From positions 1 through 28,850 of IMG/VR virus record IMGVR_UViG_3300049491_000314: a stretch of DNA of 28,850 bases. One strand, written 5' to 3'. How positions within the stretch are numbered: position 1 is the first letter of the stretch; each line of letters begins with the position of its first letter. This document shows positions 1,467 through 20,434 of the stretch, piece after piece. Below the pieces are notes generated by a model. The model ran no database searches. It had not been told where the DNA came from and saw only the letters and a list, made by a program, of their open reading frames with translations. The position numbers and the translations under genes were made by a program. Source of the DNA: a virus.

Positions 1467-1849
1467 CGCGCCACCCGCTCGACTGCGAGCATCGCGAATT
1501 CAAGGGTGCCGTACCAGCGCGCGGTGTCTCTCTTGGCCCTTCCGATGTAGCCACCACGACTGGCGTCAGCGGCGACGATGTACCCGCCGCTGACGTGTTG
1601 GTACTCGCATCCCTCCTTGTGCCACCCCGGCCGCAGTTCGGGCTCTGCGGGCTTGCCGTGCACCTTGCACCACTCGGTATCGCCCGCCTCGGTCCAGCAC
1701 TCGCACCCTTCAGCGCGCGGCAGGAACGCGTGAGCCGAGATCGGGTCGGGATGGAGGTAGGCGCTACATCCGCACGTGATGCACTTGCTGGCAGGCTCCT
1801 CGCGCATCGTCTTGCCGATCATGCGCACGTACGTGTTCGTCTCGGTCAT
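1463..1849 (-). CDS. cysteine-rich putative zinc-binding protein, 128 aa
   Basis: The start at 1849 forms an ATGA overlap with the annealing-protein gene and has a GGGGAAG ribosome-binding site 3 bases upstream. Cysteines at 23, 26 and 28 (CITCGC), 49 and 51 (CEC), 61 and 81, with several histidines between, look like one or two metal-binding knuckles. The pattern is visible in sequence; zinc binding is inferred. The C-terminal half (GGYIVAADASRGGYIGRAKR) has no known motif. Tight coupling to the recombination gene suggests co-expression, but function is unknown. Confidence 0.7.
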   Translation of the reverse strand: MTETNTYVRMIGKTMREEPASKCITCGCSAYLHPDPISAHAFLPRAEGCECWTEAGDTEWCKVHGKPAEPELRPGWHKEGCEYQHVSGGYIVAADASRGGYIGRAKRDTARWYGTLEFAMLAVERVAR

Positions 1850-2868
1850 GGCTTCCCCATTTCGTCGTGACCATCGTCGCGGCCGCTGAGTCCCCAGCCG
1901 TCCGGACCGGCTTCGGGGTCGGGGTGCTTCGGGCTGTTGGCAATGCGCCCTGCGAGCACGGCTGCGGCGTACATCTTCAGCTCGCGATCCTTGCTGTTGT
2001 CGGCGTACCACTCGAGCTGGGGAATCCCGAGATCGCGCAGCGGCTTGTCCTTGTTCTTGCCGTTCGCCTTGATGATGTAGTCCTCTGGGTCAAGCTCGGG
2101 GTCGACGGCGGGCGACCACGTCTCCCTCTGTGCTGGTCGCGACTCCCGGTGACGCGCTTGCACGGGCTCGCGCGGCTCATCGTCCTCCAGGCCCTGCGTG
2201 AACAGGTCGGAGCATCGCGAGATCGCAATCGAGGCATCCACGAGCGCCCGCTTCTTGGCCATCTTCAGGATGGTGTTGACCTGGCTCGCGATGTCGTCGT
2301 TCTCGACCTTGCCCATGGGCTGGTCGACGATGACGGGGTCCGTGTCCTTGAACTTCGCGCCGCAGCCGCCCTTGTTCTTGAAGCAGAGCCAGCCCCCGCC
2401 GTACTCCTGCTTACCCTTGATGATCGCGTTGCTGCCGCACTCGGGGCACGTGCGGTCAGCCTTGCGCCAGCGGTAGCGGCCCTCGCGGCTGTTGCAGCTC
2501 CCCAGCCCCTGCGCGAACACGAAGCCCGTCTCTCGAGAGCGGAGCTCGCACTTGATCTCGTAGTGGAACAGGTTCTTGTCCCAGTCCTCGACCCTCTGCA
2601 CGACCGTGAAATTGGGTTCGCACCGGAACAGGTCGACCAGCTTCTCGGCGCCGGGCTTCAGTAGTGTTGGCTTCGGCGTGCCGGGGATGGTGCCGTAGTC
2701 GGTGCCCTCGACCATGGCGCCCTTCACGTACTCCTTGATCAGCTGTCGCTGCTCGCGGTCTGCCTCCATCGATGCGCGCATGATGGTCGCGCGCGCGGTC
2801 GTGGTCAGCGCGGCTGCGGGCGCCGGAGGTGCGGGTATGATTTCTGCTGTCAGTGCTGTGGTAGACAT
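1846..2868 (-). CDS. putative RAD52/Sak-like single-strand annealing protein with inserted zinc ribbon
   Basis: This 340-aa protein has the phage signature EGTDYGTIPGTPKPTLLKPG at residues 54-73. A beta-rich core follows (HYEIKCELRSRETGFVFAQG, 102-121). A four-cysteine zinc ribbon comes next (C141, C144, C162, C169), then KMAKKRALVDA at 202-212. The last motif resembles the 'K-A-x-x-D-A' helix of RAD52-type annealing proteins, which pair complementary single strands during phage recombination. The C-terminal segment 270-289 (GKNKDKPLRDL...LEWYA) resembles the small 'GK-x-KG-x-x-L' domain (DUF3820-like) attached to some phage nucleases. The Gp157-family gene nearby fits a recombination module. 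The start at 2868 is preferred over upstream in-frame codons because it has an AGAGGG site. The RAD52 assignment rests on motif resemblance; the alternative is an unnamed DNA-binding phage family. Confidence 0.6.
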   Translation of the reverse strand: MSTTALTAEIIPAPPAPAAALTTTARATIMRASMEADREQRQLIKEYVKGAMVEGTDYGTIPGTPKPTLLKPGAEKLVDLFRCEPNFTVVQRVEDWDKNLFHYEIKCELRSRETGFVFAQGLGSCNSREGRYRWRKADRTCPECGSNAIIKGKQEYGGGWLCFKNKGGCGAKFKDTDPVIVDQPMGKVENDDIASQVNTILKMAKKRALVDASIAISRCSDLFTQGLEDDEPREPVQARHRESRPAQRETWSPAVDPELDPEDYIIKANGKNKDKPLRDLGIPQLEWYADNSKDRELKMYAAAVLAGRIANSPKHPDPEAGPDGWGLSGRDDGHDEMGKP

Positions 2869-3170: not shown

Positions 3171-3430
3171 GGCTCCTCGGGGTAGGCGAGGGCCCTGGAT
3201 ATCCAACGCATCGTCCGCTCGTCCATTTGCTCATCCGGATTCTGAGCAATCTGCGCGCAGACCCGCGCCACCCGTCGCGCCTCATCGCGTTCGTCGCGAA
3301 ACCCGTCGCGCTCGATAAGCGCTTGGTCCCGCTGTGCGCGGAGGACTCGGAGCGCCTCCGCGTGCTCGATCTGCCGGCGCTTCTCTTCGGCCTGTTCGCG
3401 ATACGCCTTGTCGTAGTCGAATGAGCCCAT
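3167..3430 (-). CDS. short coiled-coil hypothetical protein, 87 aa
   Basis: The start at 3430 overlaps the stop of the Gp157-like gene as TGATG and has a GAGGT site upstream. Residues 8-60 are almost entirely Glu, Arg, Lys, Ala and Gln, with a repeated 'RDxxxxERDGFRDERDEAR' pattern that predicts a helical coiled coil. There is no membrane segment and no catalytic motif. It sits between the Gp157-like gene and the membrane protein in the leftward operon. Function unknown. Confidence 0.7.
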   Translation of the reverse strand: MGSFDYDKAYREQAEEKRRQIEHAEALRVLRAQRDQALIERDGFRDERDEARRVARVCAQIAQNPDEQMDERTMRWISRALAYPEEP

Positions 3431-3936
3431 CACCGGAACCTCACATGGTCGCTCTGCACAAGCTTGGCGAAGTCGAACTGCGCCCCGTTCTTCAGCGCGC
3501 ACAGCATCTTTTTCTTGTCCGGTTCGGGGTCGACGGGGCGCGTGTACTCGGGAGGGATGGTGCGGCCTGCGACCAGTGCCACACTCGGGGGCGACTTCTC
3601 GATGCACACTTTGCACGTGGGCGTTTTCAGCGTGCTCACTCCCAGCCGCTTCAGCTCGCAGTGCAGCCGCTCCTTCAGCCGCTCCGCCGCAGCCTTCGGG
3701 GCGTGTGCACGCTTCTCGTAGTACGCCGCGAGCTCCTTCTGCGCGCACGCCAGCGTGGTCAACTCGGCGTAGACGTAGTGGTAGGCTTCGGCCTTCTGCT
3801 CCAGCGTGAGGTTCAGCGCGTCGAGCTGCGCCACGGCCTCGGGGGTGAGTTCGCCATCGTCGTTCACCTGTGCGGCGGCGATGATGGCGGAGGCAATTGC
3901 ATGAAGACTGCTTGTCCTATCTATCAGCGCTTCCAT
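3430..3936 (-). CDS. Siphovirus Gp157-family protein
   Basis: The 168-aa product matches the Gp157 family (PF05565) over its C-terminal half: KTPTCKVCIEKSPPSV at 104-119, IPPEY at 127-131, a DKKK segment at 140-143, ALKNG at 147-151 and the end VRFR, in the family order 'KT-x-F-x-V-x(R/K)-NPPSV ... IP-x-EY ... DK ... ALK-x-G ... LRIR'. The N-terminal half is the usual helical region (35-100). The family has no established biochemical activity but commonly lies beside phage annealing proteins, as here. The first 17 residues (MEALIDRTSSLHAIASA) strongly resemble the start of the adjacent HNH gene, hinting that the endonuclease entered at the 5' end of this gene. Confidence 0.82.
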   Translation of the reverse strand: MEALIDRTSSLHAIASAIIAAAQVNDDGELTPEAVAQLDALNLTLEQKAEAYHYVYAELTTLACAQKELAAYYEKRAHAPKAAAERLKERLHCELKRLGVSTLKTPTCKVCIEKSPPSVALVAGRTIPPEYTRPVDPEPDKKKMLCALKNGAQFDFAKLVQSDHVRFR

Positions 3937-4424
3937 GTAACCCCTCGGACGATTAGCCCGATGTTTCCCGATGTCGTTTCAAACAGTTCGGCAATCTCCG
4001 ATCGAGAAAAGACGCCAGACTCGTCCAGTCTTCGAATCGCCTCTACGTGGCAGCGGTGCAGCTTGCATGCCGGGTGTCGTTCCCACTCTAAGGCGGGCGT
4101 CCTCCCGCGCCCCTTCCTGCGCATGTCGCGCATGTTGTCGGTATGGGTTCCAAGGAACAGATGCGCCGGGTTCACGCACGGCGGGTTGTCGCAGCGGTGG
4201 CAAACCAGCATCCCCCTTGGGATCGCTCCGTTCTTGAGCTCCCAGCTCAGGCGGTGCGCTCGCAAACCACGCCGCTGGAATAGGATTTGCCCGTATCCGC
4301 ACGCGTCCCTCCGCGCTTTCCAGACCCAGCAATCGTCTTCGCGCCCTACGTCGACCTTTTCCCAGAACCTCTCTGCGGCCGGCGCGATCGCGTAAAGCGA
4401 CGACTCGCGTGTGATGGCGTTCAT
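3924..4424 (-). CDS. HNH endonuclease with C-terminal HTH (homing-type)
   Basis: The start at 4424 has a clear GAGGTGA site and lies just past the upstream stop. The 166-aa protein carries an HNH_3-like core: W33 and W35 with a GYG motif, AHRLSW at 56-61, LVCHRCDNP at 73-81 (C75, H76, C78), C83, N85 and H88 followed by FLGT. This is the beta-beta-alpha metal nuclease fold of phage homing endonucleases. Residues 125-163 (VEAIRRLDESG...SRSEIAELF...IVRG) form the HTH usual at the C terminus of these enzymes, for target recognition. It lies in line with the operon between the Gp157-like gene and the MGLDIYI gene, overlapping the former by 13 bases. Free-standing homing endonucleases are selfish mobile genes; activity is inferred. 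Confidence 0.88.
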   Translation of the reverse strand: MNAITRESSLYAIAPAAERFWEKVDVGREDDCWVWKARRDACGYGQILFQRRGLRAHRLSWELKNGAIPRGMLVCHRCDNPPCVNPAHLFLGTHTDNMRDMRRKGRGRTPALEWERHPACKLHRCHVEAIRRLDESGVFSRSEIAELFETTSGNIGLIVRGVTWKR

Positions 4425-4429
4425 GGTGC

Positions 4430-4888
4430 TCACCTCGACCATCGCATCCAGAACTGGTCCGGATTGTCTTGGGCCAAGACGTAGCCGCAGGTCTCCGCGA
4501 CGATCTTGAGCGCGGTCACGTACCAACCGTGGTGGTCGCCACCGGTTTCGTAGATGGCATAGACGACTGACGGCTCGGACGCGGAGATGTCTTCGATAGC
4601 CCCCGCCATCTCCAGCGCGCGTGCGCGGGCACCAGCCCAGTCCGGACGAAAGAAGCCGCTGTCGTCGTTGCCCTCCGGGAAGATGTGATAGAGACCTGGC
4701 TTGCAGAGCAAGCGATTGACGTAGGCGTTGATGCCTGCATTGTTGTACGAGCTGCGAAAGTAGCCGATTTTGAACAGGTGGTCTGGTTGCGTGGTCGAGT
4801 CGATGTTGATCGTCGAGTCATCGGCCCAGCGCTCTTCGTCGGTCCGTGGCTCGGATTCGTGCTTCGAAATGTAGATGTCGAGTCCCAT
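4430..4888 (-). CDS. MGLDIYI-type phage hypothetical protein, 152 aa
   Basis: The ATG at 4888 has a GGTGA site 6 bases upstream; a GTG at 4897 overlaps the preceding stop but has no ribosome-binding site. The N terminus MGLDIYI followed by 'F+xxYF+xxYNNAGIN' is typical of a widespread but uncharacterised phage family starting MGLDMYL/MGLDIYI. The protein is soluble and rich in aromatics (YHIF, WYVTALKIV) and has no recognised catalytic motif. It is separated by only 5 bases from the HNH gene downstream. Function unknown. Confidence 0.72.
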   Translation of the reverse strand: MGLDIYISKHESEPRTDEERWADDSTINIDSTTQPDHLFKIGYFRSSYNNAGINAYVNRLLCKPGLYHIFPEGNDDSGFFRPDWAGARARALEMAGAIEDISASEPSVVYAIYETGGDHHGWYVTALKIVAETCGYVLAQDNPDQFWMRWSR

Positions 4889-7430: not shown

Positions 7431-7552
7431 ACGCTGCACGCTTGCCGATTACTTACGAAGTTCACGCTTCGCCACCCCCAGGGGCTGGCATTCGTGCCGC
7501 GACATGCCCGGAAACGACCAGCGTTTACGCGCAGTGGTTCCCTGGACGGTGA
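7427..7552 (+). CDS. 41-aa micro-protein
   Basis: An ATG overlaps the HTH gene stop as ATGA and has an AGAGG site 8 bases upstream. The product begins MNAARLPITYEVHASPPPGA and ends in AQWFPGR. It is short, proline-rich and has one cysteine; no family is recognised. The coupled start and absence of any competing frame in this gap support it as a real gene. Confidence 0.5.
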   Translation: MNAARLPITYEVHASPPPGAGIRAATCPETTSVYAQWFPGR

Positions 7553-7555
7553 GCT

Positions 7556-7666
7556 ATGAGCGACGCCGCGAGCACTTCTCAAGAGTCCACGTCTGCCGTT
7601 GAGCCGACGTCTCTCCCCCGCGATGCCGCTCCAGCAGGCGTGGACGTTGTCTTGGAGGGCGCATGA
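7556..7666 (+). CDS. 36-aa micro-protein
   Basis: It starts at an ATG with a GGTGAG site and ends in an ATGA overlap with the next gene. The sequence (MSDAASTSQESTSAVEP, then TSLPRDAAPAGVDVVLEGA) is Ser/Thr/Ala-rich and probably disordered. The start lies only 4 bases past the previous stop. A 17-codon frame from the GTG at 7549 is a less likely alternative. Function unknown. Confidence 0.5.
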   Translation: MSDAASTSQESTSAVEPTSLPRDAAPAGVDVVLEGA

Positions 7667-7899
7667 GACCTCGCGACGTTGGCCGCGCAGTGATCGTGCG
7701 TACGCGCTGGGGCTCTTGGCGCGGCGTGCTGGTGCTTGCAGCGCCCCACGAACGCGTCTGCATGGTGCGACCTACCGAGCCAGGCAAAGGCTGGAGCACG
7801 ACCGCGCTGGAGCTGCGCAAGGACGTCGTCGACTTCGACCCGGGCACGACCGAGAGCCGTGCAGTGCTGCGGTTGGTCGCGGGGGGCAGGGCGCTGTGA
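7663..7899 (+). CDS. small basic beta-rich protein, 78 aa
   Basis: ATGA and GTGA overlaps bound the gene. The sequence alternates hydrophobic and polar residues (RAVIVRTRWGSWRGVLVL, then ERVCMVRPT), suggesting a small beta barrel of SH3 or KOW type. That fold is inferred from the pattern alone. It sits between micro-genes and the putative replication initiator. Function unknown. Confidence 0.65.
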   Translation: MRPRDVGRAVIVRTRWGSWRGVLVLAAPHERVCMVRPTEPGKGWSTTALELRKDVVDFDPGTTESRAVLRLVAGGRAL

Positions 7900-8777
7900 T
7901 CGTCGTCACTCCGCGCGCCATGGCAGCGATCGCGCAGGCGTACCACGACCTTCGCGAGTGCGGTCGCGACCAGTCCGCCGAGGAGCTTCTCGCAGCCTTC
8001 CGCGAGCCGCAGGCGACCTTCGAACCGGAGCCAACCCCAGCGCCTGAACCGTCCCAGCCTACGGACGAAGCGGCCAAGGAAAGGGCACGTCTGCGGGCTG
8101 CCCGGTACCGCCAGAACAAGGGTGCGACGCCCCGAAACAGCGTGACGGAGCGTGACGCGTCACGCGTGACGAACGTGACGAATAGCGTGACGAATCGTGA
8201 CGTTCAGCGTGACGATTTTCGTGACGTTTCGTCCTCGCGATCGCGCGTTTCCGAAGAAGAAGAGAAGAGAAAACCCTCTGATTTCAGGGCAGTCGTTGCT
8301 GAAATTGAATCGTCAGAGAAGAGTGGGAGCTCTGAATTCCGCGCGCGCACGAGCGTGACGAATGGCGTGACGGAGCGTGACGCGTCACGTGACGAACGGC
8401 GTGACGAACGTGACGTGACGCGGCGTGACGCGCTTCGAGTTCAGCGACGCTTCACCGACGCACTCTCGGTCACCTGGGACACGCACTCCTGGCGCTCTGA
8501 GCTCGACCGCATCGCCTGCAAGCCGGAGGCGGAGCTCGCCAAGGTGCTCGAGAACCTCCAGGCCGACCCGTGGGTGAAGGACAACCGCGGCGTGGTCACC
8601 CCGGGCCACCTCCTGAAGCACTGGGACCGCTACCTGCAACCGCCCAAGGGCAAGCGCGCGCCCGTCGATGAGACGCCAGTCATCCGGCGGTACGTGAACA
8701 ACGACGCGGACGCGCAGATGCGTCGCGACCTCGCAGCCGACAGGGCTCGCATCCTCAAGGGGGTCTCCAATGGCTGA
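7896..8777 (+). CDS. putative replication initiator (lambda O-like position) with embedded iteron array
   Basis: A GTG at 7896 makes a GTGA overlap and follows GGGGGGCAGGG; an ATG at 7920 is the alternative. The 293-aa protein has a helical N-terminal part (to about residue 45), a Pro/Glu linker (PEPTPAPEPSQP), a basic segment (RARLRAARYRQNK) and a low-complexity middle (about 80-178) built of VT and RD pairs. Its conserved-looking C-terminal domain ends in VTPGHLLKHWDRYLQP, a motif resembling C termini of phage replisome-organiser proteins. The low-complexity middle is encoded by sixteen CGTGACG heptamers in two frames around an A-rich stretch, matching how lambda carries ori inside gene O. 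Position after the Cro-like gene also fits an initiator. The function is inferred from this arrangement, not from a clear HTH or helicase match. Confidence 0.55.
   Translation: MIVVTPRAMAAIAQAYHDLRECGRDQSAEELLAAFREPQATFEPEPTPAPEPSQPTDEAAKERARLRAARYRQNKGATPRNSVTERDASRVTNVTNSVTNRDVQRDDFRDVSSSRSRVSEEEEKRKPSDFRAVVAEIESSEKSGSSEFRARTSVTNGVTERDASRDERRDERDVTRRDALRVQRRFTDALSVTWDTHSWRSELDRIACKPEAELAKVLENLQADPWVKDNRGVVTPGHLLKHWDRYLQPPKGKRAPVDETPVIRRYVNNDADAQMRRDLAADRARILKGVSNG
8141..8226 (+). repeat. iteron cluster I: eight direct CGTGACG heptamers
   Basis: Direct copies start at 8141, 8151, 8165, 8174, 8186, 8196, 8208 and 8220, with spacings of 9-14 bp and most 10-12 bp, near one helical turn. One inverted copy (8158-8164) forms the perfect palindrome CGTGACGCGTCACG at 8151-8164. 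Four copies encode Val-Thr and four encode Arg-Asp, so the repeat is kept in two frames. Confidence 0.8.
8253..8340. other. A-rich segment between iteron clusters, candidate DNA unwinding element
   Basis: A 21-base all-purine run (8253-8273) is followed by an A+T-enriched stretch to about 8340, clearly lower in GC than its surroundings. Its place between two arrays of initiator-type repeats matches an unwinding element; no melting evidence is available from sequence alone. Confidence 0.5.
8354..8430 (+). repeat. iteron cluster II: eight direct CGTGACG heptamers
   Basis: Direct copies start at 8354, 8366, 8376, 8388, 8400, 8409, 8414 and 8424, and an inverted copy at 8383-8389 makes the palindrome CGTGACGCGTCACG at 8376-8389. 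The 25 bases 8365-8389 are identical to 8140-8164 in cluster I. Three copies encode Val-Thr and five Arg-Asp. Confidence 0.8.
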
Positions 8778-9228
8778 CGGCCTCGCATGCATCAGCGACG
8801 CCCTCGGGGCGAAGTCTCTCGAGCAGGCCGTGAAGCTGGCGAGTGAGTCGCACTGGCTCGACTGCTGCGTCCCGCTGCCCATCCCAAGCATCCCGCTTCG
8901 CCTCGCGACCGTCGAGCAGTCGTGGTTGCACGACATGCGGGCGAAGAACCACGACGACGAACAGGGCACCGTAGCGGCCTACAACGCCTGGGTGACTGCG
9001 AGGGCGTCTGCGGTCGCTGAGAACGAGTGCCGGCTGCGTGGGGCCATGTGGTGCTGGCGCAGGCTACGCGCGGAGCACGACGCCAGCCCGGACCCCGCGC
9101 TCAAGGCCATGTGTCGGCGCGTGCGGAGCTTCCTGGCTGACCAGTGGGGCGTGACGGATCCACCGATGAACTACGCCGATGCGCACGCAATGGCTGTGAG
9201 CACCGTGCAGGGGAGGGTGACGGGATGA
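8770..9228 (+). CDS. hypothetical protein, 152 aa, in the helicase-loader position
   Basis: The start overlaps the initiator stop by 8 bases and has an AAGGGGG site upstream. The protein is soluble and helical, with five cysteines and several tryptophans (WCWRRLRAEH). No Walker motif is present, so it is not a DnaC-type AAA+ loader. Directly after a putative initiator one expects a helicase loader or a second replisome-organiser domain, but the sequence alone does not show either. Confidence 0.7.
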   Translation: MADGLACISDALGAKSLEQAVKLASESHWLDCCVPLPIPSIPLRLATVEQSWLHDMRAKNHDDEQGTVAAYNAWVTARASAVAENECRLRGAMWCWRRLRAEHDASPDPALKAMCRRVRSFLADQWGVTDPPMNYADAHAMAVSTVQGRVTG

Positions 9229-9401
9229 GTGACGGGAAAAGCCAGGAGTGGGGCCACAATACGCGACTGCTCGGCAGCCTTGGCGTGCTGTGGCTCGTGC
9301 TGTTTCTTGGGGACTGCAAGGGCGGGCTGACTCGCCTGCGCGAGCAGGCCTGCATCTACAAGACCGGCAACCCCTCCTGCAATCAAGCGGAGAAGCCGTG
9401 A
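9225..9401 (+). CDS. small single-span membrane protein, 58 aa
   Basis: ATGA overlap with the preceding gene. Residues 15-29 (LLGSLGVLWLVLFLG) form a hydrophobic span after a polar N terminus, followed by a cysteine and positive residues (DCKGGLTRLREQACIYK). Two further cysteines lie in the tail. No lipobox is convincing because Asp precedes the first Cys. Function unknown; toxin-like or holin-like small proteins cannot be excluded. Confidence 0.6.
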   Translation: MSDGKSQEWGHNTRLLGSLGVLWLVLFLGDCKGGLTRLREQACIYKTGNPSCNQAEKP

Positions 9402-9589
9402 TGGCGATGGTGCTTGAGCTGGAACTGGACGAGGCCGAGCGACGGCTCTGCGCGCAAGCGCTGGCAGCTGAGGCTTACGCGGAACTGAACAGGTCCGCGG
9501 GCTACATCGAGAACAACCTCGGCAAGGTCTACGAAAAGGTCGCGAGGCTGATGGCACGGGCTGCCGAGCTCACGAGGGCGGGCGAATGA
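9401..9589 (+). CDS. small helical protein, 62 aa
   Basis: A GGAG site precedes GTG 9398 and ATG 9401; the ATG gives a TGATG overlap and the GTG a GTGA overlap, so the start is uncertain by one codon. The product (MAMVLELELDEAERRLCAQA...) is acidic at the start and wholly helical. No motif is recognised. It lies in the coupled chain between two small membrane proteins. Confidence 0.6.
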   Translation: MAMVLELELDEAERRLCAQALAAEAYAELNRSAGYIENNLGKVYEKVARLMARAAELTRAGE

Positions 9590-9675
9590 CGTGGCAACAG
9601 CTGCTGCTGGAGAGCCCCATCCCCTTAGCGATGGGGCTGGCGTTCGGCTACTTCGTCATCGGGAGGATGCGATGA
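9586..9675 (+). CDS. 29-aa single-span membrane micro-protein
   Basis: The frame begins and ends in ATGA overlaps. The sequence MTWQQLLLESPIPLAMGLAF followed by GYFVIGRMR has a hydrophobic stretch from residue 11 to 26 and a basic end, the layout of a small inner-membrane peptide. The perfect tiling between neighbours is the main support. Function unknown. Confidence 0.55.
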   Translation: MTWQQLLLESPIPLAMGLAFGYFVIGRMR

Positions 9676-10148
9676 CCGCGCTCTGTCTGAGTCAGCTCGA
9701 GCAGCAGCTCCGCGTGTCGGCACACGACCAGGGCGGGGAAGGGTGGACGCTCACGCTACCGATCCAGGTCAAGAACGGCTGCAACCTGCGCGAGCACCCC
9801 ATGGCGCGGCACCGCAGGGTGCTCAAAGAGCACAAGATCGTTGCCCAAGCGCTGTGGGCACGCGAGCTGCTGAACAAGCGCCATCGCCCAAGCTTTCCAC
9901 CGTATGTCGTCACCATGACGCGCATCGCCGCGCGCAAGCTGGACGATGACAACATGGTCGCGGGCTTCAAGGGCGTTCGTGACGCCGTGGCCAAGTGGCT
10001 GGGCGTGAACGACGGCGACACCAGCAAGGTGCGCTGGGTATACGCGCCCGAAGAGAAGCCGCCGCGCAACGACGACGCCACGACGCTGCGCACCGGCAAG
10101 CGCAGCGCCTACGCCTGCCGTATCCAGATCGAGGGGGCGACGACATGA
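9672..10148 (+). CDS. RusA-like Holliday junction resolvase
   Basis: The 158-aa protein has the acidic signature of RusA-type resolvases: LDDDN at 90-94, a lysine and aspartate in FKGVRDAV (K100, D104), and ND-GD at 113-116 after WLG, following the family pattern 'D-x-DN ... K ... D-x-L ... D-D'. The N-terminal TLTLPIQVKNG and HRRVLKEHK segments fit the strand and basic helix that precede it. RusA dimers cut four-way junctions by a metal-dependent reaction, useful in resolving replication and packaging intermediates. It lies in the replication module, ATGA-coupled on both sides. The N terminus is a little longer than in typical RusA proteins of about 120 residues. Confidence 0.68.
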   Translation: MTALCLSQLEQQLRVSAHDQGGEGWTLTLPIQVKNGCNLREHPMARHRRVLKEHKIVAQALWARELLNKRHRPSFPPYVVTMTRIAARKLDDDNMVAGFKGVRDAVAKWLGVNDGDTSKVRWVYAPEEKPPRNDDATTLRTGKRSAYACRIQIEGATT

Positions 10149-10315
10149 GCGATGGGCTGAAGTGGTGCTGGTGCGTTCGCGGCTCCTTCTGCTCGACGTG
10201 CGACATGTGCGAACAGCGTCACATCGACCTGGAGCGCATCAAGCTTCGTGCGGCTGCCAAGGCGAAGGCTCTTGAGGAGCAGGACGCGTCGACCGAGATC
10301 GAGGGGGCGGAGTGA
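10145..10315 (+). CDS. cysteine-rich micro-protein, 56 aa
   Basis: ATGA and GTGA overlaps bound the gene. Five cysteines lie in residues 8-22 (WCWCVRGSFCSTCDMCEQRH), enough for one zinc site, followed by a charged helix (RIKLRAAAKAKALEE). Its 3' end AGATCGAGGGGGCG repeats the 3' end of the resolvase gene exactly and serves as ribosome-binding site for the next gene. Function unknown. Confidence 0.6.
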   Translation: MSDGLKWCWCVRGSFCSTCDMCEQRHIDLERIKLRAAAKAKALEEQDASTEIEGAE

Positions 10316-10497
10316 CGCACGTATGCCCGCAGGAAGGGTGCTTCGACTGTTACAGCGAAGCGATGAACGCGCCGATTGATGCGGCCCTCCAGGCCATGCA
10401 CGACCTGTGCGTGTGGGCTTTGTGCAGTGGCAACGCGCATTGCAGCGTGGTCACGCCCACGGAGTTCAAGACCGTGTGGGAGGTCAAGTGCCGGTGA
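10312..10497 (+). CDS. cysteine-rich micro-protein, 61 aa
   Basis: GTG start in a GTGA overlap with a GAGGGGGCGGA site. Cysteines at 5, 10, 13, 33, 38, 44 and 60 are spread through the sequence (CPQEGCFDC at the start). The middle is a helix (NAPIDAALQAMHDLCVWALC). No family is recognised. The shared context with three neighbouring cysteine-rich genes suggests a cassette of small zinc-binding proteins. Confidence 0.58.
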   Translation: MTHVCPQEGCFDCYSEAMNAPIDAALQAMHDLCVWALCSGNAHCSVVTPTEFKTVWEVKCR

Positions 10498-10664
10498 CCG
10501 TCCATCCCTGCATTCGCTGCGGCTGTGCCTGCCACTGGCTGCGAGGTGGCCTGGAGCAGCGCTGTTACCACTGCTCCACGAGGTCAGTGGCGCACGTCAG
10601 CTACCACCGCATCGGCAACAGGCGCGTGACTGTGCGGACCTGGGAACGCGAGGTGATGCTGTGA
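10494..10664 (+). CDS. zinc-ribbon micro-protein, 56 aa
   Basis: GTG at 10494 in a GTGA overlap; GTG 10488 is an in-frame alternative. Residues 6-27 hold CIRCGCACHW and CYHC, a two-knuckle zinc ribbon, followed by beta-like sequence (RSVAHVSYHRIGNRRVTVRTW). Zinc binding is inferred. It could bind nucleic acid or a host protein; nothing further can be said. Confidence 0.6.
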   Translation: MTVHPCIRCGCACHWLRGGLEQRCYHCSTRSVAHVSYHRIGNRRVTVRTWEREVML

Positions 10665-10843
10665 CGCCGGAGGAAGTGGAGGCCGAGTGCTTGGCGCTTC
10701 TGCAGAGCATGATGCACATATCCGACAACAACGTCTTGTACGCCATCCTCGTGACCATCCGCTGGGCGTTCGGCAAGGACAGGTCGATGCACGAGTGGGC
10801 GGTCTACTCGTTCTGCAACGGTCGATTGGTGTGGGACCGATGA
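10661..10843 (+). CDS. hypothetical protein, 60 aa
   Basis: GTG start in a GTGA overlap. The product (MTPEEVEAECLALLQSMMHI...) is predicted helical with aromatic residues near the end (WAVYSFCNGRLVWDR). No motif recognised. Coupled to a zinc-ribbon gene on each side. Confidence 0.58.
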   Translation: MTPEEVEAECLALLQSMMHISDNNVLYAILVTIRWAFGKDRSMHEWAVYSFCNGRLVWDR

Positions 10844-11013
10844 AACGCGAGCGCCCCCAGCCCAAGCCTGTGTGGAAGCCGCGACCAATGACCACGCTGA
10901 AGCTCAACCCGCAGTACGCGCGTTGCATGCGATGCGGTGCGGACAAGCCGCCTGACACGCGCGGGTCGTGCGTGTTCTGCGGGCCTGCACCGAAACTTCC
11001 ACCGACGTTCTGA
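10840..11013 (+). CDS. zinc-ribbon micro-protein, 57 aa
   Basis: ATGA overlap start. A basic proline-rich N terminus (MKRERPQPKPVWKPRP) precedes a clear ribbon: CMRCG at 29-33 and CVFCG at 44-48. It is the last gene of the coupled replication chain; a 32-base gap with no terminator follows before the terminase genes. Confidence 0.62.
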   Translation: MKRERPQPKPVWKPRPMTTLKLNPQYARCMRCGADKPPDTRGSCVFCGPAPKLPPTF

Positions 11014-11045
11014 CCAACCTTGCGACCTGCGCACGAGGGGAATCT

Positions 11046-11468
11046 GTGGCCGCGAATCTAACGATTTCCAACGAAATCCAAGAGCTGACTCCGCAGCAAA
11101 TGCGCGTCGTAGCGCTTAGAGTTCAGGGCAAGCGTTGGAGCGAAATCGCCGACGACTTGGGCGTTACACCGTGGACGATTTGGCATTGGCGCACAACCAA
11201 CCCCGAGATCGATCGCGCGGTTGTCGAGGAGTCGATGGACTTCTTGATAGCCTCGCGTCATCGGATGGCCAAGCTGTTGCCCATGGCCGACGACGCGATC
11301 GAGGACTCGCTCAAGGTTCACAACGAAGTGCGCGACAGGCTGAGCGGCGCGAAGATGGTGCGCGACACGTTCGCCAAGAATGGCTCGGAGGCTGCGCAAG
11401 CGGCCCCTATACCAGAACGCGGCCGGCTTCATGATGATGAGCTCGACCGCGTTCTCAGCGCCGGCTAG
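11046..11468 (+). CDS. putative terminase small subunit
   Basis: The GTG at 11046 follows a GAGGGG site by 5 bases; an ATG at 10968 lies inside the previous gene. The 140-aa product has an HTH at about 30-50 (RWSEIADDLGVTPWTIWHW), followed by NPEIDRAVVEE and a long helical part (residues 60-120) suited to oligomerisation. A DNA-binding HTH plus helical core directly upstream of the large terminase is the small-subunit layout, which recognises the packaging site and assembles as a ring. The 3' end overlaps the large subunit gene. Assignment rests on context and layout. Confidence 0.68.
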   Translation: MAANLTISNEIQELTPQQMRVVALRVQGKRWSEIADDLGVTPWTIWHWRTTNPEIDRAVVEESMDFLIASRHRMAKLLPMADDAIEDSLKVHNEVRDRLSGAKMVRDTFAKNGSEAAQAAPIPERGRLHDDELDRVLSAG

Positions 11469-13050
11469 CTACGATAAGCGCACTATCGCGCTGCGTCAGG
11501 CGTGGACAGAAGGCAAGCTGCGCTTCCTCCTACACGAAGACCAGAAGCGCGTCTACGACCAATATCGGCAGTGGGAAAAGCTCGATCCCACAACGCAGCC
11601 GGGCAACTTCCCGCGCGTGTTCGTGTTCGACATCGGGAGGCGCTGGGGCAAGACCACGGCGCTGCTCGTGATCATGTTCGAGAACGCGATTCGCAATCAG
11701 CGCCACATCCTGCGCTACTCGACCGCGTACCAGAAGAACATCCAGGAAATCATCTCGGACGTGTCGCGCTACGTGCTCGAGACGTGCCCGAGCGACCTGC
11801 GCCCGAAGCTCGTAGGCCAAACGTTCAAGTTCCCGCGCAGTGGCTCTGAGGTGCGCCTGGTCGGCCTCGACATGCACCCAGACGGCTTGCGCGGGCAGGC
11901 GTGCGACATGGACGCGCTCTCCGAAGCTGCGTTCATCAAGGGCCTGTCCTACAGCATCAAGAGCGTTCTCTATCCGCAGTACCAGGGCAGGCCGTGGGCG
12001 CGCATCGTGCTCGAGTCGTCGGCGCCCGTCGAGGCGGAGAGCGACTACGACACGCTCTTCGTCGAGGATGCGAAGCTGCGTGGCGCGTACGTCTACCGCA
12101 CGATCGACGACAACCCGCGCTTGTCACACGAGGAGCGCGAAGAGTTCATCAAGGCTGCCGGAGGACGCGAGCACCATGACTGCCAACGCGAGTACTTCAA
12201 CATCCGCGTGCGCGATCCTGAAGGCAGCGTCGTGCCTGAGTTCTCCGCTCCTCGACACGTGCGTCTGTCGACAGTGCCGGATTATGCGCACTGTTATGTT
12301 GGCGCTGACCCGGGGACAAGAGATAAATTTGGCCTGGTCTTCGGTTACTGGGATGCGGCTCGAAGTAAGCTCGTCATCCAACGCAGCTGGGCCGAGCGAA
12401 ACGCCAGCCTCGCCGACGTCGCAGAAGTAATCCGCACGACTGAGCAAGAGCTGTGGGGTACCGCCGCAACGACTGATGACGCTGCTTCCAAGCTCCGGAC
12501 GCAGTCGAGCGACGGCACCCCAGAGCCCTTGCGCTTCTGGAACGGCAAAGAGCTCCAAGCGAACCCGCACCGGCGCGTATCCGACACCGACGCGCGCGTC
12601 ATCTTCGAGCTGGGCAAGGCGCACGGCATCGCGTTCAACGCAGCCGACAAGCGCCACGCAAAGGCTGTCGCCGACGCAGGCTCAGCGCGACGTCTGCCCG
12701 AGCACAAGCTCGCCACGCTGCGCGACTGGATACTGAACGACCGCGTCGAGATATGGCCTGACAGCGGGCCGCTTCAGCACCAGCTGAACGCAGGGCGTTG
12801 GAACGACCAGCGCACCGACTTCGAGCGCACGCCAACGCACGGCCACCTCGATTGCATGATGGCGCTTGTCTACATGCTGCCCGCGGTCGAGCGCAACGCG
12901 AACCCCAGCAAGCCCGACTGGGCGGACGCAGACCCGCAGCAGACGTACGTGCCCGACCACCTGCGCAAGCCCGAGAAGGCGTCGACCGCGGAGCTGAACA
13001 AGGCGTTCGGCAGCCTGCGCGTTGCCGGCGCGCGACGGAGGTTTGCGTGA
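11431..13050 (+). CDS. terL: terminase large subunit
   Basis: About 539 aa from the ATG triplet at 11431-11439; the exact start is unsure because no good ribosome-binding site precedes any candidate, and it overlaps the small subunit gene by 38 bases. The ATPase domain has Walker A GRRWGKTT at about 69-76, a Walker B-like acidic region ending in LSEAAF, and a coupling motif LESSAP. The nuclease domain has GADPGT with the first RNase H aspartate near 293, and HLDCMMAL with the last aspartate near 474. The enzyme drives DNA into the procapsid by ATP hydrolysis and cuts the concatemer. Domain order and length are normal. Confidence 0.9.
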   Translation: MMMSSTAFSAPASYDKRTIALRQAWTEGKLRFLLHEDQKRVYDQYRQWEKLDPTTQPGNFPRVFVFDIGRRWGKTTALLVIMFENAIRNQRHILRYSTAYQKNIQEIISDVSRYVLETCPSDLRPKLVGQTFKFPRSGSEVRLVGLDMHPDGLRGQACDMDALSEAAFIKGLSYSIKSVLYPQYQGRPWARIVLESSAPVEAESDYDTLFVEDAKLRGAYVYRTIDDNPRLSHEEREEFIKAAGGREHHDCQREYFNIRVRDPEGSVVPEFSAPRHVRLSTVPDYAHCYVGADPGTRDKFGLVFGYWDAARSKLVIQRSWAERNASLADVAEVIRTTEQELWGTAATTDDAASKLRTQSSDGTPEPLRFWNGKELQANPHRRVSDTDARVIFELGKAHGIAFNAADKRHAKAVADAGSARRLPEHKLATLRDWILNDRVEIWPDSGPLQHQLNAGRWNDQRTDFERTPTHGHLDCMMALVYMLPAVERNANPSKPDWADADPQQTYVPDHLRKPEKASTAELNKAFGSLRVAGARRRFA

Positions 13051-13544
13051 TCCGCGAACTGACAACGCCACTGCAAGAGCACGCCGAGGTCGACTCCATG
13101 CGCGATCGCTACTCGCCCATGCGCTACATCGCGCACCTCAAGGGCGCGATGGTTGGCGAGTTCAGGGGCCGTGGCGAGTGGTCACGCGTGCTGCGCAACA
13201 TGCCGGCCGACGATGCAGTGGCGTTCTGGTTCGAGTTCGATGAGCTCGCGGAATCTGGCGCCTGGGTGAAGGTGCTGGACGCCGAGGAGCGCGAACAGGT
13301 GAAGGAGCGCGTGCTTGCGAAGGTGGACGAGTGGCGCGCGCTGTCGTCGAGCCTGCAAAGCGGCGACTACGGCATCCCCGCAGCGCTCATGCACCAGATT
13401 GCGAACGACCCCGACTTCGAACCGGGCGAGGAAGAGATGGACGACGCCGAGGCTGAAGCGTGGCTTGAGGACGTCGTTGAGGAGGACTCGGGTTGGCCCG
13501 AGGACATTGAAGACGCCGATATCGGCAAGGGAGAAGAACGATGA
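13047..13544 (+). CDS. hypothetical acidic protein, 165 aa
   Basis: GTG at 13047 in a GTGA overlap with a GGAGG site 5 bases upstream. The N-terminal part is mixed helical (RYIAHLKGAMVGEFRGRGEW). The C-terminal third is strongly acidic (EEEMDDAEAEAWLEDVVEED), suggesting binding to a basic partner or DNA mimicry; this is speculative. No family is recognised. Position after TerL suggests a late gene. Confidence 0.7.
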   Translation: MIRELTTPLQEHAEVDSMRDRYSPMRYIAHLKGAMVGEFRGRGEWSRVLRNMPADDAVAFWFEFDELAESGAWVKVLDAEEREQVKERVLAKVDEWRALSSSLQSGDYGIPAALMHQIANDPDFEPGEEEMDDAEAEAWLEDVVEEDSGWPEDIEDADIGKGEER

Positions 13545-13708
13545 ACGCGACAATCGATACGAATGTGGACGGGGCGATCGCAGCGGCAAAGCGGCGGTTC
13601 GACGCGTCTGTAGAGCTTCTGATGAGCTTCGAGCCGACGGCCGAGCAGCTCACCGAAGCTGCGCGCGCGCTGGTGAAGATCGCTCACAAGGGGATGCGGG
13701 CAGAATGA
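13541..13708 (+). CDS. small hypothetical protein, 55 aa
   Basis: ATGA overlaps on both sides and a GAGAAG site upstream. The sequence (MNATIDTNVDGAIAAAKRRF, ending HKGMRAE) is two predicted helices with no cysteines or membrane span. Function unknown. Confidence 0.58.
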   Translation: MNATIDTNVDGAIAAAKRRFDASVELLMSFEPTAEQLTEAARALVKIAHKGMRAE

Positions 13709-14169
13709 TCTACGCAGCGGCGGCCGCATTCGCACTGGGGTTGTTGGCGTGGGACATCGGCCGCCGCTGGCTCGACACCGTGCGCGCGAACGACGTGCAC
13801 CGACAGCTGCTGAACTCGGTGAGCGCCGACGTGGCGCGTCTCACCGACGAGCACGGTGAGCGCCTGGACGACGTCGCCGACAAGATCAAGGTCGCCATCG
13901 CCGACTACGCGCGGCAGAAGCTCAACGAGGACGAGTGCTACGCACGCCGCGTGAACGAGCGCCTGGCTTTTCTCGAGGGCAGCATCGCGCTGCTGCCCTC
14001 CGAGCCGCCCGACCTCACGAAGTTCAGCAAGGCGCTCGAGAACCTGGTGCGTGAGACGCGCGACGAGCTCGCCAAGCGCCCCACACACGAAGACCTGAAA
14101 GCCGCTGAGACGCGCCTGCACGGCGTGCTTAGCGGGAGTGTCGCGAAGGGCGCCAAGAGGTTCGCATGA
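13705..14169 (+). CDS. membrane-anchored coiled-coil protein, 154 aa
   Basis: Residues 1-16 (MIYAAAAAFALGLLAW) form an N-terminal membrane segment, followed by DIGRRW and a long charged helical region with coiled-coil character to about residue 150. The shape, one N-terminal span and a long helical tail, resembles an inner-membrane spanin, but no outer-membrane partner is seen next to it. First of three membrane-protein genes between TerL and portal. Confidence 0.66.
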   Translation: MIYAAAAAFALGLLAWDIGRRWLDTVRANDVHRQLLNSVSADVARLTDEHGERLDDVADKIKVAIADYARQKLNEDECYARRVNERLAFLEGSIALLPSEPPDLTKFSKALENLVRETRDELAKRPTHEDLKAAETRLHGVLSGSVAKGAKRFA

Positions 14170-14390
14170 GCGACGAAGGCATGCAGGCGTTGCGCGATGA
14201 GCTCGACGCCAAGGAATCAATTGAGGAAGGCACCATGAACCCGAACATCTTGCGAATCGTTGGAACGCTGGTGGCGGTGGCACTCGGCGTGCTTGGTCAC
14301 GCAGGCGTTGTCCCGGTCAGCAACGAAGTCAGCTCATCGATCGCCACGCTGCTGATCGGCTGGCTGCACCTGGAGAAGCCGAAGTCATGA
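14166..14390 (+). CDS. holin-like two-span membrane protein with two possible starts
   Basis: The 74-aa form begins at 14166 in an ATGA overlap with an AAGAGG site. A second ATG at 14235 has a better GAGGAAGG site and gives a 51-aa form. The shared part has two hydrophobic spans, about residues 28-47 (LRIVGTLVAVALGVLGHAGV) and 56-65 (SSSIATLLIGW), with a basic end (HLEKPKS). The 23 extra residues of the long form are charged (MSDEGMQALRDELDAKESIE). Dual starts that alter the N terminus are known for lambda S holin and antiholin. A holin role is inferred from topology and start arrangement only; a virion or packaging membrane protein is possible. Confidence 0.55.
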   Translation: MSDEGMQALRDELDAKESIEEGTMNPNILRIVGTLVAVALGVLGHAGVVPVSNEVSSSIATLLIGWLHLEKPKS

Positions 14391-14857
14391 GTCAGCCGCA
14401 GCAAACCGCGAAGCTGGGTGAGAAGGACTACCTCATCTCGCCCACCGACGAGAACGAGCACCGCATCGCCGTTGCGTGGATCGAGAAGCACTATCCGAGC
14501 ATCAACACGCCGGGTAACCCACGCTTCACTACGGCGCTCCCGGTCGACCGGCTCACGCCCGAGCACACCGTACGCGTGCTCGCGCGGATGGGGCGCAAGC
14601 TCACGCCCGCGCTGCGCACCGAGCGCAACGCACAGGGCGAGTCCAAGGTGCATCGCGCGACCGACGAGGAGCTTGCGAGCGAGCTGTCGTTGAGCGCGCC
14701 CGTCGCCGTGCGCAAGCACTGGATGTCGCCCGCAGACGGCCAGGAAGGCGAGATCATCGTCTCCAGCTTCCTCGAAGAACTGGGCAATGTGTGCGTGCCC
14801 TACTGCCCGAAGTGGAAGCCCGAGGACGGCCGCAAGGTCCGGTTGGCCTGGGCATGA
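14387..14857 (+). CDS. hypothetical protein, 156 aa
   Basis: ATGA overlaps on both sides. Soluble and mixed alpha/beta with several Pro-Val and Lys-His segments (HRIAVAWIEKHYPSINTPGN). It contains no lysozyme, amidase or peptidase motif that I can see, although it follows the holin-like gene. Cysteines at the end (VCVPYCPKWKPEDGRK) form a CVPYC pair. Function unknown. Confidence 0.68.
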   Translation: MSQPQQTAKLGEKDYLISPTDENEHRIAVAWIEKHYPSINTPGNPRFTTALPVDRLTPEHTVRVLARMGRKLTPALRTERNAQGESKVHRATDEELASELSLSAPVAVRKHWMSPADGQEGEIIVSSFLEELGNVCVPYCPKWKPEDGRKVRLAWA

Positions 14858-15069
14858 TCGATCTGATCGCGTGCGGCGTGCTGCTTCTAGGCCTCGGCTG
14901 CGTGATGTGGGGGCTCTGCCACCACTTCTACCGGCGAGGCTGGGAAGCGCGCGAACGCGCCGCGCGCGAGAGACAGCAGCGCATCGAACTGCGCAAGACC
15001 ATCGACCTCGAGCGAGAGCGACAGCTCCGCAGGAGATTGCGACGTGACCCCGATCGACCAGCTTCCTGA
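14854..15069 (+). CDS. small membrane protein with basic tail, 71 aa
   Basis: ATGA overlap start. Residues 1-22 (IDLIACGVLLLGLGCVMWGL) form one transmembrane segment, followed by a strongly basic helical tail (ARERAARERQQRIELRK) that should remain in the cytoplasm. The 3' end overlaps the portal gene by 26 bases. Third membrane gene of the cassette. Function unknown. Confidence 0.62.
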   Translation: MIDLIACGVLLLGLGCVMWGLCHHFYRRGWEARERAARERQQRIELRKTIDLERERQLRRRLRRDPDRPAS

Positions 15070-17152
15070 GCTCGAGACGCAGCCCGAACCCAAAGAGGCT
15101 TCGGATGAGCTCTACTGGGCTCGCAAGACGGCCGCCGAAGTCGTCTCCGTTCTCCAAAACAAGGAGACGTCCTACTTCACGCACGCCGACCGACGCGGCT
15201 TCAAGACGATGTGGCGCCGCGCGTGGGCCACGTACTTCGGCCAAGACCCCGAGAGCATGCAGTCGTTCGACGCCCAGACGATTTCGATCGCAGGCGAGGA
15301 CGGGGAGCTGTTGCAGTTCCGTCTGAACGAGAACAGGCCGCTGATCGAGCGCCAGCTGCAGATGATTTGCGGCGAGCGCGCAGCCTTCCAGTGCCACGCA
15401 GTGAACTCCGACTACTCGACCAAGGCGCAAATCAACGCCTGTGACGCGTTCGTCGAGTACGGCTATCGAAAAGCGCACGCTGAACGCAAAGAAGTGCGCG
15501 TCGCCGAGTCCGATTTGGTGTTCGGCAGCGGCGCGGGGTGGTTCCGCTGGGATTCGGACGCCGGGGACGAGATCCAGGTCGTCGAACAGCAGCCCACGGG
15601 CATCGATGGGGCGCTTGCACCCGTCCCGACCATGAAAAAGTCGGGTTTGCCGACCGCGACGGTGCTGTATCCGTGGTCGGAGTTCAAAGAAACGTGCGCC
15701 GAACGGCATTTGTGGCGCACGCCGCGCGAGCCCATCAGCAAATGGGAGCTCATCGCGCAGTATGCCGAGCACGCGGATAAGATTCGCGCGATCAAGGGTC
15801 GCGACGAGTACACCACCGGCGCTCTCTTCGGCTTCAGCGATGACCAGGAGGGCGAAGGCGATGAGGTGATCGTCAAGCACTTCCTGCACGAGCGCTGTGG
15901 CGCGCTGCCGCAGGGTCGGTACATCGGATATGTGGGCTCCGTGGTGCTCTGGGACCTGCCCTGCCCGGTCTCCGAGGGCCTGCCCATCGTCGAGATGATG
16001 TCGACGCCCATGATCGGCACCACGCTGGGCTACGCGGCCAGCTGGGACCTCATGGCGCCCACGCAGATGCAGGACCAAATCACGTCCGACGTCGCGTCCA
16101 ACCTCGCCACGTTCGGCCGCCAGGTCATCGGCGTCTACGACGGCACCAAGTTCGACTTCGATGCGCTCGCCAACGGGCACCGCGTGCTGAACCTGCCCAC
16201 CGCGAGCGCGGCGCCTGTCGCCCTGAGCTTCGCATCCATCCCCGAGGCGTCCCAGTGGATGCTTAGCGAGTACCTGCCGGGTGCGCGCGCGCGCCTGTCC
16301 TCCGTGAACGAGGCTGCGCAGGGAAACCCCGAGGCGATGGTCAAGAGCGGCACCTACGCCGCGCTACTGCACTCCATCGCGATCGAGGGACAAGCCCCGA
16401 AGCAAACTGCGTTCGACAACTACCGCGAGCAGAGCGCAAACCTAATCCTCGACCTGGTGCGCCAGCGTGCGAGCGCGCCGTTCCTGATCGACGTCGCGGG
16501 CAAGGACGAGCGCCCGTACCTCCAGGAGTTCACGAAGGACACGCTCAGCGGCGTCAAGCGCGTGGTCGTGAAGACCGCCAACCCGATGATGCGATCGCAG
16601 GCGGGTCGGCTGCAGGTGTTCGAGGCGGTCGCGCCGATTCCGAACCCCGCGGACCGCGCGGCCGCACTCGACCTGATCATAACGGGCGACTCCAAGGCGT
16701 TTTCCAAGGTCGACCGCTCCGAGGACATGGCGATCACGTGGGAGAACGAGCAGCTGGCGCAGGGCATCCCGTGCCCGGTGCTCTACTGCGATAAGCACGA
16801 TCTGCACTGGGCCAAGCACAAGGCCGAGCTGGACGCGCGCAGGCCGGAGCTGATGGGCAACCCCGCCGCGCTCGAGGCGTACATGCAGCACATGATGGAG
16901 CACGAGAGCGTCTACACGACGCTCACGAACCCCATCGCGAGCGAATGGAACAAGATGATGCCCGCGCCGATGTACCGCGGCATTCCGACGCCGCCACCGG
17001 CAAACAACCAGATGGCACCCGAGGGCGCGATGGGCGGGACTGTCGACGCCGCCGTGAACGCGGGAGCAGGAGCACCCCCGAGCGACCCAGCCGCACAGGC
17101 TGGCGCTGAACAACCTGAGCCGGCACAGCCGCCGGCGGAGGCCGCAGCATGA
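15044..17152 (+). CDS. portal protein, P22-like
   Basis: The GTG at 15044 follows an AGGAG site by about 8 bases. The 702-aa length is close to P22 portal (725). Typical features are the early helical region (YWARKTAAEVVSVL...), RPLIERQLQMICGERA, the GYAASWDLMAPTQMQ segment in the middle, and SSVNEAAQGNPEAMVKSGTY in the C-terminal half, which resemble podoviral portals. The last 60 residues are Pro/Ala-rich. The portal forms a dodecameric ring at one capsid vertex, is the docking site for terminase and DNA entry, and binds the adaptor later. Position between TerL and scaffold supports the call. Confidence 0.82.
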   Translation: MTPIDQLPELETQPEPKEASDELYWARKTAAEVVSVLQNKETSYFTHADRRGFKTMWRRAWATYFGQDPESMQSFDAQTISIAGEDGELLQFRLNENRPLIERQLQMICGERAAFQCHAVNSDYSTKAQINACDAFVEYGYRKAHAERKEVRVAESDLVFGSGAGWFRWDSDAGDEIQVVEQQPTGIDGALAPVPTMKKSGLPTATVLYPWSEFKETCAERHLWRTPREPISKWELIAQYAEHADKIRAIKGRDEYTTGALFGFSDDQEGEGDEVIVKHFLHERCGALPQGRYIGYVGSVVLWDLPCPVSEGLPIVEMMSTPMIGTTLGYAASWDLMAPTQMQDQITSDVASNLATFGRQVIGVYDGTKFDFDALANGHRVLNLPTASAAPVALSFASIPEASQWMLSEYLPGARARLSSVNEAAQGNPEAMVKSGTYAALLHSIAIEGQAPKQTAFDNYREQSANLILDLVRQRASAPFLIDVAGKDERPYLQEFTKDTLSGVKRVVVKTANPMMRSQAGRLQVFEAVAPIPNPADRAAALDLIITGDSKAFSKVDRSEDMAITWENEQLAQGIPCPVLYCDKHDLHWAKHKAELDARRPELMGNPAALEAYMQHMMEHESVYTTLTNPIASEWNKMMPAPMYRGIPTPPPANNQMAPEGAMGGTVDAAVNAGAGAPPSDPAAQAGAEQPEPAQPPAEAAA

Positions 17153-18294
17153 GCGCAGAACTGGCAGCGACGCCCTCGAACTTCGAGGCGCATCTCGCGA
17201 ACGTGGGCAACACGCCCGCGGACACTGGAAGCGACGACGGTGGCGCACAGGAAATGCGCGACAACACCGGCCCGAGCAACACCAACGCCTGGGGCGGTGA
17301 CGTCTCGGGCGCCGAGCCGAAATGGGAGAACCCCGAGCGGCGCGCCGAGGGGGACGCCGAGGACCCCACGCAGCAGTTCAGCGATGAGCCGTCCGAAGGC
17401 GAGCCGCAAGAGGGCGAACAGGACGAGCAGCAAGCCCCCGACGGGATGCCGCCATACGAGCAGCTCCAAGAGATGTTCCAGGTGACGCAGCGCCCCGAGC
17501 TGCACGAGTACTTCCTCGACAAGACGGTGCCGGTGCCGGTGAACGGCGTCGAGGTGCCCAAGACGGTGCGCGAGCTGAAGGAAGGCTACCTGCGCATGTC
17601 GGACTACTCGCGCAAGAGCCAGGAGGCGGCTGCGGAGCGCGGGCGCGCGCAGCAGGCGATCGAGCAGAACCGCATGTTCCTCGAGCGCATGAGCAACCCG
17701 AAGGTGCTGCGCGCGACGCTGCGCCGGCTCGGGCCGCAGCACGAGGCCGCGTTCGAAGCCTGCGCCGAGGACCTCGCCCGCGAGCGCCTTTCGCTGCTGA
17801 AGATGACGCCTACCGAGCGCGCCCACTTCCAGCGCGCCCAGGACGCCGAGCGCCGCGCCGAGATGCTGGAGGAGCAGGCCCGCCGTCAGCCGCGCGAGCC
17901 CGAGGTCGATCCGCGAGAGCAGGCCAAGCCGCAGATGATCGCGGCGCTCAATGCGCACGTCGGCCCCGCCTGGCAGCGCTACAACATCACCCCGTCGCCC
18001 CTCGCGACCCGCGTGTTCCAAATGCACATACAGAACGTGTGGGACTCGCAAATGGGCTCGATCCCCGAAGCCGTCGAGCGCGCCTCTCAGGCGACTGCCG
18101 AGACGCTCGAGGACCTCGCCCGCAAACACCTCGGGCAGGCGCCCCAACAGCCCACCAACGCCCCGCGGCAAGTCCAGCCCCTCGGGCCGCGCAGGGTGCC
18201 CGCAGGAGCCCCGCCGCGCCCTAAACTCGCACCCGGTCAGCGTGACACGCGCTTCCGGTCCACCAACTTCGCCGACTTCCTCAAGGGACGATGA
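17149..18294 (+). CDS. capsid scaffolding protein
   Basis: The 381-aa protein has an acidic, disordered N terminus (residues 25-100, EGEPQEGEQDEQQAPDG), then VNGVEVPKTVRELKEGYLRM at 131-150 and SDYSRKSQEAA. This 'V-x-G-x-x-V-x-x-x-E-L-x-x-GY-x-x-x-SDYSRK' motif occurs in many phage scaffold proteins. A long charged helical region follows (160-300). The C terminus is Pro/Arg-rich and ends in a basic tail (FADFLKGR) suited to coat binding. Scaffold directs coat assembly and is then removed. No protease domain is seen. ATGA coupling to the portal fits assembly stoichiometry. Confidence 0.75.
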   Translation: MSAELAATPSNFEAHLANVGNTPADTGSDDGGAQEMRDNTGPSNTNAWGGDVSGAEPKWENPERRAEGDAEDPTQQFSDEPSEGEPQEGEQDEQQAPDGMPPYEQLQEMFQVTQRPELHEYFLDKTVPVPVNGVEVPKTVRELKEGYLRMSDYSRKSQEAAAERGRAQQAIEQNRMFLERMSNPKVLRATLRRLGPQHEAAFEACAEDLARERLSLLKMTPTERAHFQRAQDAERRAEMLEEQARRQPREPEVDPREQAKPQMIAALNAHVGPAWQRYNITPSPLATRVFQMHIQNVWDSQMGSIPEAVERASQATAETLEDLARKHLGQAPQQPTNAPRQVQPLGPRRVPAGAPPRPKLAPGQRDTRFRSTNFADFLKGR

Positions 18295-20426: not shown

Positions 20427-20434
20427 GCACTTCC

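Follow-up and report, generated by a model that had tools for sequence, protein, structure and literature searches.

Results

Gene arrangement at the locus

The window considered here, by which we mean the whole 28,850-nt stretch of DNA analysed, comes from an unclassified GC-rich phage. An operon on its minus strand runs from the gene we call MGLDIYI through an HNH endonuclease gene, a Gp157 gene and two small genes to a probable annealing/recombination gene. The features on which the argument depends are the following.

4430..4888, minus strand: upstream operon gene MGLDIYI (P0003), which matches no Pfam or PHROG family
3924..4424, minus strand: HNH_3 endonuclease gene (P0001), 166 aa, assigned by Pfam, PHROG and conserved HNH residues
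4377..4424, minus strand: HNH leader MNAITRESSLYAIAPA, 16 codons, Gp157-like, GC3 0.875, marked off by the limit of HNH homology and by the Gp157 N-terminal profile
3924..3936, minus strand: HNH/Gp157 overlap of 13 nt, with the Gp157 ATG within the HNH 3' end
3430..3936, minus strand: Gp157 gene (Sipho_Gp157 / Mu Gam-like; P0002), 168 aa, assigned by PF05565 and PHROG 253
3886..3924, minus strand: second motif copy, IDRTSSLHAIASA, shared with the leader and lying at the Gp157 start, in a low-GC3 5' end
1846..2868, minus strand: downstream probable single-strand annealing/recombination gene of the same module, homologues of which adjoin Gp157 elsewhere; its role is putative

The HNH coding sequence occupies 3924-4424; the interval 3895-4424 given in the initial annotation thus takes in the first 14 codons of Gp157 as well. 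The HNH ATG lies 5 nt past the MGLDIYI stop, the place where the next gene of the operon would be expected to start, and a ribosome-binding-like GAGGTG overlaps that stop ahead of the ATG. The Gp157 ATG is preceded by GAGGGG, located inside the HNH gene. Homologues of the annealing gene adjoin Gp157 in phages D6E and Geobacillus E2 and in locus L239. The best match of this gene among phage records, in Myxococcus phage Mx4 (54% over 59%), hints at a myxobacterial-type host, and the MGLDIYI protein has a single relative among phage records, in Bordetella phage PHB04 (hypothetical protein, 41% over 71%).

Both proteins at the centre of the locus pass the curated cut-offs of their families. The HNH protein does so for HNH_3 in Pfam (PF13392; E=1e-13, 51.1 bits vs 24.8) and matches PHROG 1872 (E=7e-34), and the Gp157 protein does so for Sipho_Gp157 (PF05565; E=5.1e-25, 88.8 bits vs 28.6) and matches PHROG 253 (E=1e-22). 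The HNH motif residues H57, H76, C78, C83 and H88 are invariant and N85 is nearly invariant (alignment A3), and a Trp near the C-terminus is kept in 40 of 41 HNH relatives. The endonuclease is of the free-standing, homing type, homing itself being presumed. In most of 80 relatives, whose leaders are mostly unlike one another, HNH homology starts at residue 15-18; because it begins only there, the leader lies outside the HNH family, as had been proposed initially. The AlphaFold model of the HNH protein has a mean pLDDT of 87, with only 49 for residues 1-10, and it predicts a helix, H6-22, in which the second half of the leader lengthens the first HNH helix. Because this predicted helix runs from 6 to 22, the leader could perhaps be a mere helix extension.

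The HNH leader resembles a Gp157 start

The segments ITRESSLYAIAPA of the HNH protein and IDRTSSLHAIASA of Gp157 are identical at 9 of 13 positions, with a BLOSUM62 score of 36, and have I-x-R-x-S-S-L-x-A-I-A-x-A in common. They lie in register, offset by one residue from the starts, and these 13 residues are the whole extent of the sharing between leader and Gp157. The resemblance between the two N termini noticed at first reading is therefore real. None of 20,000 shuffles of the N-terminal 25 aa of the HNH protein reached this score. As an empirical null we used random pairs of N-terminal 25-mers from non-homologous phage ORFs, 150,000 pairs per set; a score of 36 was reached by 27 pairs when all loci were drawn upon and by 37 when GC-rich loci were, or ~1-2 in 10,000, and 16 and 21 of these pairs, respectively (~60%), were in register. 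With ~40 adjacent gene pairs in a stretch of the size of the window, the chance of such a score is ~0.5-1%, and when many windows are scanned, some coincidences of this size must be expected. The HNH comparison set consisted of 103 genes with an ATG-bounded leader, 82 of which, the window included, had a downstream start. When each leader was compared with the start of its downstream gene, the window scored 36 and the next best among the 81 other HNH genes 24; mismatched pairs of leader and downstream start reached 36 in 3 of 1502 cases.

The leader can also be compared with the Gp157 family without reference to its neighbour. Our Gp157 N-terminal profile comprises 62 loci, with the window left out; it was enlarged from 12 sequences once 50 new Gp157 relatives, added from viral contigs, had been found, a step prompted by these relatives and not by the score. 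On the earlier profile of just 12 sequences the leader came out at a weak 54/2591. On the profile of 62 loci it scores 11.6 bits, as high a score being obtained by 2 of 2,878 other N-termini, which bears out the initial description of the leader as Gp157-type. The best of the other 126 HNH leaders reaches 5.6 bits. The 48 distinct Gp157 starts span 9.0-23.9 bits, a range into which the leader falls; the window's own Gp157, at 5.3 bits, scores below all 48 of them and below the HNH leader. According to the widened set, the family start reads M-x-x-x-[ST]-L-Y-x-[IL]-A-x-E. For the L-Y-x-I/L-A motif near the start, the leader has LYAIA and the window's Gp157 has LHAIA after 10 residues. The spacer before L-[YH] is 9 and 10 residues long in the window copies and 2-7 in 47 of the 48 Gp157 starts with an assigned Met. 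Some Gp157 relatives start MTAMSLYAIA or MTALSLYVIA, close to the M-N-A-I-...-SLYAIA of the leader.

The present Gp157 start and the DNA of the two copies

The Gp157 ATG consists of the last base of an HNH Thr codon (ACA) and the TG of the conserved Trp codon (TGG), and some dozen codons before this ATG the Gp157 reading frame is closed. With its start codon inside a conserved HNH codon, the present Gp157 start therefore postdates the arrival of the HNH gene, in agreement with the earlier idea that Gp157 had regained a start of its own. This order of events is the best-established part of the history of the locus, and it is independent of the leader.

The DNA of the shared segment is identical at 17 of 39 bases, compared with 23.4 +/- 2.4 matches expected from independent draws from the codon usage of the window (P=0.006); the two serines, for example, are coded TCG TCG in one copy and AGC AGT in the other. 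Because the copies match at just 17 of 39 bases, a simple recent duplication is ruled out, and a difference larger than independent codon choice would produce is as expected if one of the copies is foreign. The suggestion that the HNH gene took over a Gp157 start accords with the position of its ATG after the MGLDIYI stop, but it does not hold in the form of a simple recent duplication. No duplication or direct repeat joins the two starts at the DNA level, and the repeats around the HNH gene include none that pair its two ends. A group I intron bearing the HNH gene was considered and rejected, there being no Rfam match for an intron core RNA.

The GC3 of the leader is host-like. That of Gp157 is 0.40 in the first 15 codons after the ATG and 0.88 in the remainder, values as low as that of its 5' end being found in 1.6% of 513 GC-rich ORFs, and the last 30 HNH codons have a GC3 of 0.57. 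This is suggestive of a foreign block that reaches from the body of the HNH gene to roughly Gp157 codon 15 and was placed behind the original start. The annealing gene also begins low in GC3 (0.40 at 2821-2868 vs 0.88 in the remainder). Because this gene of the same window shows such a start, a low-GC3 start is not unique to Gp157, and we rejected the dip as proof of foreign DNA, treating it as suggestive only.

Relatives of the locus

An HNH-free relative with a single copy of the N-terminus was not found in IMG/VR, phage records or plasmid records, and peptide patterns gave no close relatives of Gp157 or MGLDIYI in IMG/VR. The viral collection contained no second HNH gene with such a leader. 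The DNA pattern Y-[AED]-[IL] within ~10 codons before ERFW had 116 matches, none of them in an HNH gene; the matches listed for SLYAIA-x-A came from an unrelated phage gene, in a frame that looked antisense, and included no Gp157, which makes for a weak negative. PF05565 in the phyla or classes of a Sorangium, a Caldimonas and a Pelagibacterium genome was represented by distant members only. The sole sister contig (L248, IMGVR_UViG_3300043406_000047), reached via the terminase, is 99.99% identical over window positions 7460-23047 and belongs to the same phage; it ends short of the HNH/Gp157 locus, and its 25 kb record holds no Gp157 match. The sister contig aside, the terminase had no pattern match in IMG/VR and one 27% match among phage records. 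Judged by these searches, the phage lineage would be nearly an orphan.

The initial annotation had named an HNH gene with the same N terminus and no Gp157 gene nearby as the case that would speak against an invasion of Gp157; none was found among 127 HNH leaders. The nearest is an HNH_3 gene (L070:2595-3044) in a structural-gene neighbourhood, with the leader MVARALSLDAIAEK, which contains SLDAIA, and no Gp157 in its 7.9 kb. This leader is a weak look-alike, at 3.5 bits on the Gp157 profile vs 11.6 for the window leader. Another HNH_3 gene (L381:2211-2678), from a phage that also has Gp157, lies between ERF-like and SSB-like genes. Its ends overlap the ERF-like stop and the SSB-like start (ATG at 2662), it has no captured leader, and it represents a separate, seamless insertion of an HNH gene into a module of this kind.

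Discussion

We tentatively propose, at a probability of roughly 0.4, that the HNH gene landed on the Gp157 gene at this locus and captured its start, and that Gp157 has since been using a second, divergent 5' end. In such a scenario, the gene for a free-standing HNH homing-type endonuclease would have inserted at the 5' end of a Gp157 gene so that its frame joined the first ~16 Gp157 codons (MNAITRESSLYAIAPA), and it would now be translated from a start formerly owned by the gene after MGLDIYI. The Gp157 protein before insertion would have begun MNAITRESSLYAIAPA and run on into IIAAAQVNDDGEL. Gp157 would survive via the second 5' end, IDRTSSLHAIASA, with its start codon and ribosome-binding site inside the HNH 3' end; this 5' end probably came from another phage along with the endonuclease, or was perhaps recoded later. 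Gp157 might thereby stay working while the presumed HNH cutting site is interrupted. The order of events, the donor origin and homing are parts of this scheme that we infer. The more specific possibility of a natural home-and-rescue, in which a phage homing element seizes the start of a recombination gene and brings a recoded 5' end that restores the gene, we regard as unlikely.

The leader might owe its likeness to coincidence or convergence, the HNH gene being an ordinary free-standing one between two operon genes with its own short Ala-rich helical leader, and we would grant this explanation somewhat less than even odds. It leaves to chance that the leader fits the Gp157 family profile independently of its neighbour (2/2878), that it adjoins a Gp157 gene and aligns in register with the start of that gene, and that none of the other HNH genes with a downstream start (82 in all, this one included) does the same; yet HNH_3 leaders vary freely, the shared residues (S, L, A, I) are common and predicted to be helical, and as high a score arises in ~1-2 of 10,000 random pairs of N-termini. 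The two DNA copies bear no trace of common descent, and HNH genes that fit in seamlessly and overlap the next start, such as L381, exist without any leader likeness. Coincidence keeps this much weight because the likeness spans just 13 residues and genome scans cover very many gene pairs.

If the likeness is one of descent, the fusion might have taken place elsewhere: the HNH gene would have acquired the start of a Gp157 gene while in another phage and come here finished, perhaps together with the neighbouring Gp157 5' end, leaving the resident gene uninterrupted. The low DNA identity and differing codon choice of the two starts would fit such an origin, as would the unusual GC3 at the Gp157 5' end and over the final 30 codons of the HNH gene. 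However, the leader has host-like codon use and begins exactly at the next-gene position after MGLDIYI, and a donor phage was not found in our searches, so that we consider this quite improbable. An HNH gene within an intron or intein-like insertion splitting Gp157, with the leader as the first exon, is brought to mind by the frequency of intron-borne HNH_3 genes (PMC10448857) and by known out-of-frame HNH insertions in phage genes (PMC11855218). We find it scarcely credible here: Rfam finds no intron family in the window, HNH-homologous sequence occupies the space up to the Gp157 start, and Gp157 has its own start and a complete motif, with its frame closed upstream of the ATG.

Returning to capture of the Gp157 start at this locus, the nearest known arrangement is that of mobile ORFs in fungal mitochondria, where gene ends are duplicated in atp6 of Allomyces and in atp6, atp9, cox2 and nad3 of Glomus (PMC3630166). 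There, too, an endonuclease lies beside a second, divergent end of the neighbouring gene, and native and inserted copies are far apart in DNA and similar in protein; in Glomus, native gene ends match those of the sister species at 91-98% and inserted ends at 64-81% (PMC3630166). In the fungal cases, however, the C-terminal end is duplicated and element-free sister species prove it, whereas here the end is N-terminal, 13 residues are shared and there is no sister genome. The fungal endonucleases are LAGLIDADG or GIY-YIG enzymes; here an HNH enzyme is found in a phage. By analogy, the start-capture reading would describe an N-terminal counterpart, in mirror image, of the atp6-type elements of fungi.

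Phage HNH genes that interrupt other genes, sit at recombination boundaries or form chimeras have been described (PMC10448857, PMC11855218, PMC8263062). Like the free-standing phage HNH_3 genes described before (PMC10448857), the present one is a small gene in a useful module, overlaps its neighbour and encodes a C-terminal helical part; unlike the 81 others compared, it has a neighbour-like leader. Odn, the chimeric nuclease of Vibrio phage ICP1, is likewise a homing-type nuclease with an N-terminal part from another gene, but it took a whole DNA-binding domain of a satellite replication gene for targeting, in contrast to the short non-domain leader here (PMC8263062). The hidden HNH of the ShiLan phage methylase is similarly inserted without known splicing in a gene thought to remain usable; in that case the host frame continues across the insertion, whereas Gp157 has a separate start (PMC11855218).

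If the likeness is a coincidence, the locus is a recombination module with an ordinary HNH gene in it. If our proposal is true, a free-standing homing endonuclease would have invaded a useful gene without destroying it, having fused to the start of that gene and supplied another in its place. Gene-end capture is documented in fungal mitochondria (PMC3630166), and a limited literature search found none for a phage HNH gene. Start capture could, if true, help explain the variable leaders of HNH_3 proteins, some of which might be relics of genes on which they had landed.
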